Program-made: the position numbers and the translations under genes
In this document: piece by piece, positions 1,353 through 5,095 of the stretch
Layout: each line of letters starts with the position of its first letter
How positions within the stretch are numbered: position 1 is the first letter of the stretch
Assembly (NCBI GenBank): GCA_016209155.1
Contig: JACQWU010000101.1
Coordinates: 1 to 5,095 of the forward strand
Length of the DNA stretch: 5,095 nt
Reading direction: 5' to 3'
DNA from: Candidatus Desantisiibacteriota bacterium
GTDB lineage: Bacteria > JACRDZ01
Notes under the pieces: model-generated
The model's input: only the letters and a program-made list of their open reading frames with translations
What the model was told of the DNA's origin: nothing
The model's database searches: none

Positions 1353-2189
1353 ATGAAATTAGGTTTTTTTATTAATGCGTATCGCAATTTTTCAATTGAA
1401 TATGCTCTGGAATCAATTAAAGAACAAGGATATCAGGGAGTTGAATTATGGGCAAAAGGCAGCCAATTGTCACCATACGATCCTGAGCGCCGCTTAAAGG
1501 AAATAGAAAATAAAATTCACGATTTTGGGCTTACGATTTATGGTATCAGCGCGCATCTTGATTTTGTTTCTCCTTCTGAAAGAACCAGGAAAGAGAATAT
1601 TGATAAATTTTTGGGATGTATTCAAATGGCTGAATTATTTAAAGTCAGAGCAGTTCATACAGCATCCGGAGGATTATATCCTGAATCAGAACTTTCTTTT
1701 CACAAACAGGAAGAATATTTTTACCATGCTATGGAAATAATAGGGAAAGAAGCGCGCAGTAAGAATATTATCGTGGCGCTCGAACCTGAACCGGAAAAAT
1801 GGCTTTCCAGGCCAGAGCAGGTACTTGAAGCAATTAAAAATCTGAATAATCCTGTTTTTCGTGTACTGGTAGATGTCGGGCATTGTTTTGGAGTAGGGGA
1901 AGAAGTACAAAGCTATCTTGAAAAAGTGAATAGTTTTTTGCATTTGATACATATTGATGATGTTTTTAGAAAAGATTTTCCGCATCGTCATTTAATACCC
2001 GGGGAAGGGGATATAAATTTTGTCCAGCTTTTTACTTATCTGGAAAGTATAAACTATGATGGATGGCTCTCAGTTGAATTAAATAAACATAATGATGATC
2101 CAAAAACAGCTTCAAACCTTGCAAAGATATTTATCGATAATTTAATGAATAATGTAGGGGCAGGTCTTGCGACTGCCCGAATTTTGTAA
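1353..2189 (+). CDS. Sugar phosphate isomerase/epimerase-like TIM-barrel protein
   Basis: This 278-residue cytoplasmic protein belongs to the xylose isomerase-like TIM-barrel superfamily (AP endonuclease family 2, which includes IolE, IolI and hydroxypyruvate isomerase). It opens with the first barrel strand MKLGFFINAY and has GYQGVELW at residues 27-33 and GISAHLDF at 64-71. Likely divalent-metal ligands are E144 in ALEPEP, D174 and H177 in VDVGH, H200 in HIDD, the HRH at 211-213 and E242 in SVEL; GEGDINF at 217-223 is also typical. These support a metal-dependent sugar or keto-sugar isomerase or epimerase, but the substrate cannot be named. The last 13 residues, NNVGAGLATARIL, are not barrel sequence: they are encoded by a palindromic repeat (2151-2178), so the original gene probably ended near IDNLM. 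It sits between the prenyltransferase and an oxidoreductase, and the pair with the latter suggests a sugar or polyol conversion. Confidence 0.85.
   Translation: MKLGFFINAYRNFSIEYALESIKEQGYQGVELWAKGSQLSPYDPERRLKEIENKIHDFGLTIYGISAHLDFVSPSERTRKENIDKFLGCIQMAELFKVRAVHTASGGLYPESELSFHKQEEYFYHAMEIIGKEARSKNIIVALEPEPEKWLSRPEQVLEAIKNLNNPVFRVLVDVGHCFGVGEEVQSYLEKVNSFLHLIHIDDVFRKDFPHRHLIPGEGDINFVQLFTYLESINYDGWLSVELNKHNDDPKTASNLAKIFIDNLMNNVGAGLATARIL
2151..2178 (+). repeat. Palindromic repeat element, copy 1, in frame at a gene's 3' end
   Basis: The element begins AATGTAGGGGCAGG and contains the inverted repeat GGGCAG (2158-2163) and CTGCCC (2173-2178) around a nine-base loop. It is GC-rich against an AT-rich gene. 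It is read in frame as NVGAGLATA, forming the C-terminal tail of the TIM-barrel protein. Copy 2 at 4149-4175 starts with the same AATGTAGGG. The hairpin lies just before the stop codon and the next gene's ribosome binding site. Similar VGAGLA tails are, from general knowledge, a recurring sight in proteins of uncultured bacterial genomes; that recollection needs a search. Confidence 0.65.
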
Positions 2190-2194
2190 GGAGG
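2188..2194 (+). promoter_or_regulatory. Strong ribosome binding site for a GTG start
   Basis: AAGGAGG overlaps the TAA stop of the TIM-barrel gene and lies nine bases before GTG at 2204. It decides the GTG start of the oxidoreductase: the protein begins MYRGAIIGLGNIG with the dinucleotide-binding strand immediately following, as expected for the family, and no ATG is available nearby in frame. Confidence 0.8.
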
Positions 2195-2203
2195 ATTTAT
2201 AAC

Positions 2204-3223
2204 GTGTATCGCGGAGCAATCATTGGTTTAGGAAATATCGGATTATACGGGCATTTACCGGCTTATTTTCATCCTGATATCAGGAAAGAAGTTAAAATTA
2301 TAGCCGGATGCGATCTGTCAAGGGAAAACCTGGAAAGATTTCAGAAATTAATCCCTGCAGCGCATTTATTTACTGATGCTGAGAAATTGTTTCAATATGA
2401 AAAGCTTGACTTCGTGGATATTTGCACTCCGCCGGTGTCACATTTTAATTTAATAAAAAAAGCTGCTCTAAAAAAAATAAATATATTAAGTGAAAAACCT
2501 GTTACGCTTGAATTAGAAACCCTTTTACAAATAAAAAAGCTTGTACTAAAAAATAAACTCGTTTTTTTGCCGGGACACCAGTATAGATATTCACCGGTAT
2601 GGCAGAAAATTATTTCTATAATCGAAAGCGGCTGTATTGGCCGGCCTTACCTTATACAGTTTTTTGTATACCGCAGGGAAGCCAACAAAGGTAATGAATA
2701 TTGGGACCCTGCCTGGCGCAGTGAAATAGAAATAAGCGGGGGTGGAATTATTGTTGACCATGGTTCTCATCTTTTTTATCTGGCTTCATCAATACTTGGG
2801 AAGCCGGAATTTGTAACTGCAATAACCAACCGGCTATCACACTTTAAATATAGTGTTGAAGATACAGCTTCGATAAATATTCAACATGAAAAGGGAGCGG
2901 CGCACCTTTTGCTGACATGGGCTGCCCATGATAGAAAAATGGAATTCCGGATTTTAGGGACGGATGGTGAAATTTCAGCCATGGAAAATAAAATTACAGT
3001 GATAGGGATAGAAGGGAAAGAAATAGTTAAACTTGATAAAGGACTTTCAGGTGATTCAAAACATTCTGACTGGTATATACCTCTTTTTAGAGAATTTATT
3101 GATAGACTTGATAAAAAAAATTTATCAATAGATGGAATGGAAGAAGCGATTACAACGACCATGTTAATTTCTGCTTCATACAAGTCAGCAGAGATAAAAA
3201 AAACAGTGGCGATTATCGGCTGA
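2204..3223 (+). CDS. Gfo/Idh/MocA-family NAD(P)-dependent oxidoreductase
   Basis: This 339-residue cytoplasmic enzyme has an N-terminal Rossmann fold with G8-L-G10-N-I-G13, an acidic residue after the second strand (AGCDLSRE, D37), and the family signature SEKPVTLE with E97-K98-P99 at the end of the nucleotide domain. The C-terminal substrate domain carries GGGIIVDHGSHLFYL, where D185 and H189 form the usual catalytic DxxxH arrangement. The family oxidises or reduces a hydroxyl group of sugars, polyols or nucleotide sugars (glucose-fructose oxidoreductase, inositol 2-dehydrogenase, sugar 3-dehydrogenases); the actual substrate cannot be read from the sequence. It starts at GTG behind a strong ribosome binding site, 14 bases after the TIM-barrel gene, and the pairing resembles IolG with IolE/IolI, though that is only an analogy. 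Its last 11 bases overlap the tail of the minus-strand U32 remnant. Confidence 0.9.
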   Translation: MYRGAIIGLGNIGLYGHLPAYFHPDIRKEVKIIAGCDLSRENLERFQKLIPAAHLFTDAEKLFQYEKLDFVDICTPPVSHFNLIKKAALKKINILSEKPVTLELETLLQIKKLVLKNKLVFLPGHQYRYSPVWQKIISIIESGCIGRPYLIQFFVYRREANKGNEYWDPAWRSEIEISGGGIIVDHGSHLFYLASSILGKPEFVTAITNRLSHFKYSVEDTASINIQHEKGAAHLLLTWAAHDRKMEFRILGTDGEISAMENKITVIGIEGKEIVKLDKGLSGDSKHSDWYIPLFREFIDRLDKKNLSIDGMEEAITTTMLISASYKSAEIKKTVAIIG

Positions 3224-3491
3224 TAAAAGAATCGAGAGTTTTTTCATAAGCTGTAACAAGTTGCTTGGAAAGTTTTTTATCGGTGCGTACAGCTTTCTCA
3301 GCGATACGATCACAATAGCGGCAGGTTTCACAGGAAAGGTATCCGCAGGTAGTATTTTGAAAGTGTTTTATGAAATTTTTAAGCATAGTATTATCAATTA
3401 CTAAATCTACTTCCGGTGCGCCAGGGATAGATTTTCTGAATTGAGAACCTAATCCGCCCGGGACAGCTAAAAGTTCGGAATCGGTAAAGAT
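3213..3491 (-). pseudogene. Out-of-frame C-terminal remnant of the U32-like gene
   Basis: A 92-codon stretch on the minus strand is open from just after an in-frame TAA (3492-3494) to TAA at 3213-3215. It encodes IFTDSELLAVPGG, then VIDNTMLKNFIKHF, then a cysteine cluster C-x4-C-x2-C-x2-C (CGYLSC, ETC, RYC), then DRIAEKAV. No start codon precedes the conserved part and no ribosome binding site is seen, so it is not an independent gene. From my knowledge of the large U32-like family whose members begin MKLSVPTNWD, such an IDN-x-LxxFI-x-F segment followed by a Cys-rich C-x-YC-x3-A motif is their normal C-terminus. It therefore looks like the end of the same gene as the adjacent 3467-4096 fragment, shifted in frame. 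It overlaps the oxidoreductase gene by 11 bases at its 3' end. Confidence 0.65.
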
Positions 3492-4096
3492 TTAGAATTT
3501 AATTGTGAAGCATGGCCGTTTATATTGGAATGGTACCGGCGGAAAGGACAGCCAAAAAGACAGGCATTATTTACAATTAATTGGAGGTCAATTTTCAGAT
3601 TTTGACGCAGAGCTTTTAAAAATTTAAAATCGCGGTTAAAGTTTTGTATGATTGTTATTTCATCAGCTCCCAGATTTTCATACATGTGCGCCATGTTTAT
3701 AGTATCCACATGTGAAAAAACTGAAACGCTGACTTTAAGAGAGGGAAAATTTTTTTTAATCCATTCCAGTAAAAGCGGAATAGATACTGTTACGGAATCA
3801 ACTCCATTTGAAACAAGCCAATCTAAAAGTTTAAAGATTTGCCTGCGTATGGGATTTGAATATTCTGTATTTCCAAGACAGGGAGCGTTAAGGACATAAT
3901 TAAAGATAGCTCCATGATCATGAATGAGTTTTATATGTTCTTTGATTCTTTGACGGGATACTTTGGGTATACTTTTGGCGGGACGCCCGCCGCCAATAAC
4001 ATCTTCCTGTAATTTCCCGTAATAATTTTCAACAGGAAGACCGGCTAAACCGGAAATAAGTTTGTTATCCCAATTAGTAGGTATAGATAATCGCAT
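3467..4096 (-). CDS. U32-family peptidase-like protein, N-terminal part, probably truncated
   Basis: This 209-residue product resembles the N-terminal half of U32 (PrtC/UbiU-UbiV-like) proteins, a family of TIM-barrel-like proteins several of which bind an iron-sulfur cluster and act in RNA or quinone hydroxylation rather than proteolysis. Visible landmarks are MRLSIPTNWD, YYGKL, the glycine-rich IGGGRP (34-39), FNYVLNAPCLGN (65-76), NGVDSVTVSIPLLL, GADEITI, and NNACLFGCPFRRYHSN with C179, C183 and H189. The start is ATG 4096: the frame extends to 4150, but the added 18 residues precede the natural family start. No good ribosome binding site is seen. The frame stops soon after HASQLN, before the second cysteine pair and the WIRPED-like region expected from the family, and the family's C-terminus follows in another frame (3213-3491). 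About 90 codons seem to be missing, so the gene is probably inactive or an assembly error is present. Confidence 0.72.
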   Translation of the reverse strand: MRLSIPTNWDNKLISGLAGLPVENYYGKLQEDVIGGGRPAKSIPKVSRQRIKEHIKLIHDHGAIFNYVLNAPCLGNTEYSNPIRRQIFKLLDWLVSNGVDSVTVSIPLLLEWIKKNFPSLKVSVSVFSHVDTINMAHMYENLGADEITIIQNFNRDFKFLKALRQNLKIDLQLIVNNACLFGCPFRRYHSNINGHASQLNSKSLPIPNF

Positions 4097-4139
4097 AAAT
4101 ATATTGTAACATTTTATATGAATATTGGCAATTAATCTT

Positions 4140-4718
4140 ATGCATGACAATGTAGGGCAAGGCTATAGCCTTGCTAATCAGTATGGGAATATTGTATATT
4201 TTTTTATTCTTTTGGTAACAGGTTTTTATATGGGGGAAGATTTTTTTCCAGATCAATATCGATTGAAAAATAAAAATATATTTTTATCAGGTATTGCATT
4301 AATGTTTCTTTTATATGCGGTTATGATATTGTCCTATATTGTAATACATAAATTTCCGTTTTTGCAAAAACGAATAGATCTAAGCCTCTGGCAGTATTTT
4401 GTGAAACCATGGCATGAAATAAATATTATTTTATCTATTATAAGTGTAATTATGATAGTATTAGCGGTTGAACTGTTTTACCGGGTTTACGTCCAAAATA
4501 CTTTTAATTTGTTCTTTTCGGATAACGCCTCTATCCTTTTGGCTTCAGCTTTAAGCGGCATCCGGGCCGCCAGTCTTGGTCCTATCTCCGGATTTGTTGA
4601 TTTCAGTTTAGCTGTTATATGGGGCTTTGTATATAAACGATCGGGATTATTAGCGGCGATACTCACTCATCTTATATGGGACATCCTTTTTGTTTATTTC
4701 CCATTTAATTTATCTTAG
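4140..4718 (+). CDS. CPBP-type (CAAX protease/Abi) membrane protein with degenerate active site
   Basis: The 192-residue product has several hydrophobic segments (about residues 18-30, 47-70, 96-112, 129-140, 152-165 and 170-188) and resembles the CPBP/Abi intramembrane protease family. The family's EExxxR motif appears as V110-E111-LFY-R115, so the first Glu is replaced by Val. The second motif, normally FxxxH, corresponds to the SALSGIRAAS stretch, which has no His. The third, HxxxN/D, survives as H177-LIW-D181. Loss of two motif positions argues against normal proteolysis; a structural, binding or decayed role is possible. The start is uncertain. ATG 4140 is chosen, giving MHDNVGQGYSLAN encoded by a palindromic repeat; TTG 4125 is in frame upstream, and ATG 4230 would cut the first membrane segment. 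No Shine-Dalgarno site precedes any of them. It is divergent from the U32 gene with only about 43 bases between them. Confidence 0.65.
   Translation: MHDNVGQGYSLANQYGNIVYFFILLVTGFYMGEDFFPDQYRLKNKNIFLSGIALMFLLYAVMILSYIVIHKFPFLQKRIDLSLWQYFVKPWHEINIILSIISVIMIVLAVELFYRVYVQNTFNLFFSDNASILLASALSGIRAASLGPISGFVDFSLAVIWGFVYKRSGLLAAILTHLIWDILFVYFPFNLS
4149..4175 (+). repeat. Palindromic repeat element, copy 2, in frame at a gene's 5' end
   Basis: The element begins AATGTAGGGCAAGG, like copy 1 at 2151, and contains a perfect 18-base palindrome, GCAAGGCTATAGCCTTGC (4157-4174), that would fold as a hairpin in RNA or form a cruciform in DNA. It lies at the 5' end of the CPBP gene and is read in frame as NVGQGYSLAN if ATG 4140 is used, the same frame as copy 1. 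The stem bases differ from copy 1 but keep internal pairing, which is how families of palindromic repeats diverge. If translation starts downstream instead, the hairpin would lie in the mRNA leader. Confidence 0.7.
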
Positions 4719-4774
4719 GAATGAGTGTGTGACAAAATTTTGGATTTTAAATTTTCACTACAGGAGAATAAATT

Positions 4775-5095
4775 ATGAAAAAAATTAAAATAGCGATTGT
4801 GGGCATTGGTAATTGCGCCAGTTCACTCTTGCAGGGTATTGAATATTATAAGCAAAACAACGGCAAAGATTTTGTTGGTCTTATGCATTGGGATTTAGGC
4901 GGTTATAAACCTTATGATATTGAAGTTGTTTCTGCTTTTGATATTGATAAAAGAAAAGTCGGACTTGATGTCAGTAAAGCTATCTTTTCGCGTCCGAACT
5001 GTACCGCAGTATTTTGTCCAAATATTCCAAAAACAAATATCAAAGTAAAAATGGGAAGAGTCCTGGATGGTTTAGCCGATCATATGAAAAATCAT
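4775..5095 (+). CDS. ino1: Inositol-phosphate synthase, N-terminal part (3' end outside window)
   Basis: The first 107 residues match the start of actinobacterial/archaeal-type myo-inositol-phosphate synthase, which converts glucose 6-phosphate to inositol 1(3)-phosphate in the cytoplasm with bound NAD. Evidence is the NAD-binding beginning IAIVGIGNCASSLLQGIEYY (G10-x-G12-x-C14), GLMHWDLGGYKPYDIEVVSAFDID (35-58) and KVGLDVSKAI, with the GRVLDG stretch near the window edge. The start is ATG eight bases after AGGAG (4762-4766). The gene begins 56 bases after the CPBP gene, so it may have its own promoter or be read through from it. In bacteria with this enzyme the product usually feeds phosphatidylinositol-type lipids or other inositol compounds; the downstream genes that would decide this are outside the window. 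The C-terminal catalytic lysines cannot be checked. Confidence 0.92.
   Translation, partial: MKKIKIAIVGIGNCASSLLQGIEYYKQNNGKDFVGLMHWDLGGYKPYDIEVVSAFDIDKRKVGLDVSKAIFSRPNCTAVFCPNIPKTNIKVKMGRVLDGLADHMKNH

Follow-up and report, generated by a model that had tools for sequence, protein, structure and literature searches.

The closest known counterparts of the repeats reported here are the GTAG-tagged REPs (Di Nocera 2013, PMC3733652; Nunvar 2010, PMC2817692). Members of this superfamily have a GTAG foot, a GC-rich stem of 6-9 bp, and a short loop. They occur in tens of copies per genome, form head-to-head pairs, and are linked to RAYT genes. Most are intergenic and some lie inside genes; REPs within other genes, including at gene ends, have been described (Di Nocera 2013, PMC3733652). 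The RAYTs (REP-associated tyrosine transposases, or TnpA-REP) of one subclass, known as TnpAY1 subclass 2.4 or RAYT group 4, are unique in containing REPs within the gene itself; these leave the frame unbroken and generally lie between the HUH motif and Tyr (Quentin 2018, PMC6006769). Another point of comparison is the Rickettsia palindromic elements (Ogata and Claverie; cited in PMC3733652), in which a repeated palindrome is found in frame in unrelated proteins.

The DNA that we analysed (the window, 5,095 nt) is the whole of contig C18 from a MAG of 3.08 Mb (352 contigs, 79% complete). Its relatives are bacterial MAGs, and the genomes searched include only three more from the same phylum. 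The window encodes the C-terminal part of UbiD, UbiA, a xylose isomerase-like TIM barrel (AP_endonuc_2, PF01261; 1353-2189, + strand), a GFO/IDH/MocA-type oxidoreductase (2204-3223, +), a U32-family gene on the opposite strand (3222-4105, -), a CPBP/Rce1-like ORF (4140-4718, +), and the start only of a last gene, which resembles the gene at the same place in a relative. (A search of the window against Rfam gave no match.) An earlier note, made from the sequence alone, had pointed to two palindromic repeats, one at the C-terminus of the TIM-barrel protein and one at the N-terminus of the CPBP protein. The coordinates, the sequence, and the reading frames of both copies are as it described.

The sequence AATGTAGGG is present at both 2151 and 4149. 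In copy 1 (2153-2178, +), TGTAG is followed by an 8-bp stem, in the GGGCAGGT/GCGACTGCCC region, around a CTTGC loop; the earlier reading of the stem as GGGCAG/CTGCCC is correct. In copy 2 (4151-4174, +), TGTAGG is followed by an 18-nt perfect palindrome, GCAAGGCTATAGCCTTGC (4157-4174). In both copies, the GTAG foot lies directly at a GC-rich hairpin, as expected of GTAG-tagged REPs. When folded as single-stranded DNA, both copies outdo nearly all of their shuffles, with z scores of -2.6 and -2.8 (4 of 200 shuffles were equally good). Within the window, they make up just one of 40 families, a weak direct repeat of 14 nt, so the window alone proves little.

Our census of REPs is based on pattern searches of the genome and on retrieved stretches. 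With up to 3 mismatches allowed, the pattern for family 1 (the family of copy 1), TGTAGGGGCAGGNCTTGNNNCTGCCC, was found at 43 places in the MAG, and the pattern for family 2, TGTAGGGCAAGGCTNNAGCCTTGC, at 42 places. The reversed patterns, which we used as controls, were found at none. This is far more than the two copies in the window, and it bears out the prediction that they belong to a high-copy genomic family. The earlier note had also called the two repeats related. Both are indeed GTAG-REPs, but they do not form one family: copies 1 and 2 represent two distinct families, with two different transposases (see below), and not divergent copies of one. The flanks are unlike at every copy, except for one local duplication (L048/L049). 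Head-to-head pairs are frequent, and several are 35-70 nt apart. These families differ from the described members of the superfamily in their host lineage and in their stem sequences, both of which are new; the text of PMC3733652 does not contain the string GTAGGGG. A third GTAG-REP family (GGTAGGWCAGRCATTCCTGYCTGWC; L145-L158) numbers 14 copies, and a 5-kb stretch of contig C89 accounts for 9 of these.

In 163 kb of contigs that were chosen regardless of REPs, GTAG ranked top of the 256 tetranucleotides in the per-occurrence rate of a following GC-rich hairpin (5 of 387, which is a small number). When the inner stem was left unconstrained, the motif of family 1 was found in 29 of 386 bacterial genomes and in 26 of 327 genera (control: 0). 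Among the 44 distinct sequences of the family 1 type, 96.9% of cells are paired. Covariation at the four stem pairs that the search did not constrain was 0.536, versus 0.146 if shuffled and 0.03-0.18 if slid. The strong covariation of these free pairs shows that the hairpin is what is kept. Copy 1 differs from its family by a single change, at 2172, which disrupts a stem pair (the inner pair 2164/2172 is G.A, and the norm for family 1 is G-C). With this mismatch, copy 1 may be an inactive relic.

We then compared each copy to the corresponding site in relatives that lack it, at about 70% protein identity. In these relatives, the TIM-barrel gene is longer and extends into the start of the oxidoreductase gene (it ends in ...FIDIYLNSGNTMKEEEPCIAEQLLV in G003). 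In the window, the TIM barrel continues to FIDNLMN, the REP then adds NVGAGLATARIL (2151-2186, +), and a stop follows just before the AGGAGG of the next gene. Alignments to TIM-barrel orthologues end where the REP begins, at residues 266-268. None of the orthologues examined (47-70% identity) has this tail or contains NVGxG. By this comparison, the tail is acquired, not ancestral. In an AlphaFold model, the barrel has a mean pLDDT of 86 and residues 269-278 are below 50; the 12-residue tail is predicted to be disordered.

At copy 2, the comparison tells a different story from the one first proposed. In two relatives, MocA is followed by a U32-type gene, another U32 gene (on the opposite strand), a TlpA-like gene, and lastly a CPBP gene whose product has an N-terminal helix. 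The window has neither the first U32-type gene nor the TlpA-like gene. Homology to CPBP proteins starts about 4 codons after the REP (at YGNIVYF), and orthologue alignments start at residue 13-14, so about 30 native residues (the first helix) are missing. The REP-encoded N-terminus is absent from the CPBP orthologues that we compared; for this protein as for the TIM barrel, the orthologues lack the NVGxG residues that would have marked ancestral protein sequence. The earlier note had described a fusion to the N-terminus of the CPBP protein. The REP does lie in frame at the start of CPBP, but it is better read as lying at the joint of a deletion, which removed the TlpA-like gene and the first CPBP codons. 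Upstream of copy 2, an ATG at 4140 opens a frame that reads through the REP. It has no apparent ribosome-binding site, so any translation through copy 2 is putative.

Other differences from the relatives lie nearby. Against positions 3223-4140 and 4718-4775 of the window, the relatives have three extra genes, which the window lacks: a U32-type gene, a TlpA-like gene, and a large one that separates CPBP from the gene after it. The start of the remaining U32-family gene adjoins the copy 2 deletion joint. Measured against its orthologues of 365 aa, this gene itself has an out-of-frame deletion of residues 210-277, near 3479. It is likely a pseudogene, unless this is an assembly error. There is no REP at the joint of this internal deletion.

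The earlier note had raised the possibility of a linked TnpA-REP/Y1 transposase, and we found one RAYT for each family. A Pfam search of the genome gave six matches to Y1_Tnp; two of them, on contigs C106 and C89, have members of other GTAG-REP families on their flanks. Another of the six, the RAYT on contig C349, is flanked by family 2 REPs: one overlaps the start of the gene and two follow its stop. By its motifs (MPDHVHL, LWQVNYYEHV, and YILNNP) and its flanking REPs, it is a candidate member of TnpA-REP subclass 2.7 ([ND]HVH, WQ, and YI[LR][NQ]NP). The RAYT on contig C186 was missed by the Pfam search because its domain is split by REPs. It is the ORF around the family 1 copy at C186:20529, and the match of Y1_Tnp to it covers the second half only. 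Just after the HUH motif, a pair of family 1 REPs lies in frame and is translated as VGAGLAPALNIERAGARPAPT. The gene is flanked by family 1 REPs as well, and contig C186 has 13 copies of the family 1 type in 22 kb. With its HUH, WQ, and YIxNNP motifs (MPNHLHG, FWQRNYYEHI, and EYIINNP), this RAYT is of the TnpA-REP subclass 2.4 type (NH[IFV]H, WQ, and YIxNNP; PMC6006769), and it shares with that subclass a variable insertion after HUH and internal REPs that keep the frame. On the basis of linkage and sequence identity, we assign family 1 to the C186 RAYT and family 2 to the C349 RAYT as their probable transposases. Further RAYTs may be missing, as the MAG is 79% complete and in 352 contigs.

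Overall, it is very probable that the two copies belong to two GTAG-REP families that are moved by RAYTs from their own genome, that copy 1 accounts for the tail and copy 2 marks a deletion joint, and that the encoded residues are by-products. The REPs themselves are non-autonomous elements of 24-26 nt; cognate HUH/Tyr transposases (RAYT, TnpA-REP), encoded elsewhere in the genome, most likely act in trans to mobilise them as single-stranded DNA. Copy 1 would have inserted where the TIM-barrel gene overlapped its downstream neighbour, and would have swapped the native end for the tail and a new stop before that neighbour's ribosome-binding site. Copy 2, whether it arrived before or after the deletion, would lie where the TlpA-like gene and the start of CPBP were lost. 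We infer that the C186 and C349 RAYTs mobilise these REPs and that the added residues are neutral. Such residues would be tolerated given their position at the ends of proteins, and because, in any frame but the TAG one, a GC-rich REP seldom contains a stop. The GTAG foot, the copy number, and the linked transposases all support the idea of REP-like sequences that invade coding ends.

Could the palindromes instead have been selected for in-frame insertion and kept as parts of proteins, as with the Rickettsia elements? Several copies are in frame: the TIM-barrel tail, the loop of the C186 RAYT, and a copy in a protein with a Big_5 domain. But of the 60 copies that we examined, only about 5 or 6 are within a plausible gene or at its end; the rest are intergenic or just outside genes. 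The coding copies also differ in frame and strand (VGAGLA, CRGRSCTCP, and, in reverse, SKAEALPY). Furthermore, open hairpins of this kind are expected anyway: in frames other than the TAG one, about 96% of random stems that share the constant bases are open. Rickettsia palindromic elements are much longer than about 26 nt. The elements here are about 24-26 nt, have the GTAG foot of REPs, are linked to RAYTs, and are mostly outside of genes. We consider this explanation improbable, and the resemblance to Rickettsia elements that the earlier note pointed out is just an analogy. The same note had wondered if the phase shared by the two copies was informative. Of the forward frames, one is open in copy 2 and two are open in copy 1; given read-through, a shared phase is therefore a 1-in-2 event. 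For this reason, and because about 96% of such stems would be open regardless, we discarded the idea that selection for translatable REPs produced the agreement in phase. The copy in the Big_5 protein (L009; on contig C99, near 2569-2594) is a second clear case of a REP within a gene: a family 1 REP lies in frame (NVGAGLAPAQ) inside the Ig-like domain.

Two other explanations do without mobile elements. Both copies are GC-rich hairpins near the ends of genes, and in other bacteria REPs can act on mRNA (Di Nocera 2013, PMC3733652), which might suggest that the hairpins arose where they now lie, as transcription terminators or to stabilise mRNA. Yet neither hairpin is followed by a run of T, and, as mentioned above, nothing in the window matches Rfam. 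Also, nearly identical sequences, including the GTAG foot, occur at dozens of unrelated sites, they are absent from the orthologous sites, and transposases are linked to them. Hairpins that evolved in place are, if anything, slightly more doubtful than protein-coding palindromes. It is hardly conceivable that the encoded residues are ancestral protein sequence with a chance resemblance to a repeat. The translations are open and in frame, but the alignments of TIM-barrel orthologues stop where copy 1 starts, those of CPBP begin where copy 2 ends, and there are 85 similar copies elsewhere. Two families of mobile GTAG-REPs account for these observations far better. As an instance of selfish DNA that edits the ends of proteins, the locus is ordinary but well documented. 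It is also a clean instance, in an uncultured lineage: REPs alter a C-terminus and an N-terminus, orthologous sites are available for comparison, and each REP family is tied to its own transposase.

We then surveyed relatives of the C186 RAYT. In-frame REPs in subclass 2.4 transposases are already known, and our survey only extends them to many more lineages. A protein search across 386 genomes found relatives in 66 of them; in comparison to the published work (PMC6006769), this extends the subclass to 60 of the 327 genera sampled, and we also counted the frames of the internal REPs. A GTAG hairpin lies 5-60 residues after HUH in 40 of the 45 distinct readable ORFs, and 31 of the 45 have two. 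When we examined the same region for all 256 tetranucleotides, the median was 2 of 45 ORFs with a hairpin. Both canonical and double-foot REPs occur among these relatives. Inside the RAYTs, 29 of the internal REPs are in the GTA-GGG frame and 4 are in the TGT-AGG frame. We rejected this excess (nominal p = 1e-5) as independent evidence, as the RAYT genes are related to each other.

The survey also suggests a testable link between subclass 2.4 transposases and restriction-modification loci. Beside 30 RAYTs of the subclass 2.4 type, there are 71 ORFs, and the Pfam families among these include Methylase_S (4), ResIII (4), HSDR_N (2), and N6_Mtase (2), along with others. PADLOC's models identified 5 type I methyltransferases and 5 specificity subunits among the same 71 ORFs. 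As a control, we considered 67 ORFs beside other subclasses of Y1 transposases: PADLOC found none of these genes, and none of the families named above is among the 25 Pfam families listed for the control ORFs. The difference of 10 versus 0 matches has a nominal p of 0.001, with the caveat that genes of the same locus are not independent of each other; we could assign hsdS or hsdM to at least 5 separate loci. RAYTs that bear REPs may thus often lie in restriction-modification loci, unlike the control set. This is possibly new: we found no literature on such a link, and the text of PMC6006769 does not mention it. A more speculative proposal, which we think is unlikely to hold in full, is a self-carrying system: a subclass 2.4 RAYT that has its substrate in its own frame, prefers restriction-modification loci, and seeds protein-compatible REPs that, as in the window, extend or replace the ends of proteins elsewhere.

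Several RAYTs of the type with REPs in the gene lie within or next to restriction-modification genes. The C186 RAYT (L159) is between hsdM-like and hsdS genes, and RAYTs on C106 (L082) and C165 (L190) adjoin type III mod-like genes. The RAYT on C89 (L081) is inside an N6_Mtase ORF: at L081:2130-3209 (- strand), a complete RAYT domain, flanked by REPs, and part of a DNA N6-methylase are read in a single open frame. The REP-coded peptides VGQAFLPVN and QTGMSDLP recur in neighbouring genes on the same contig.
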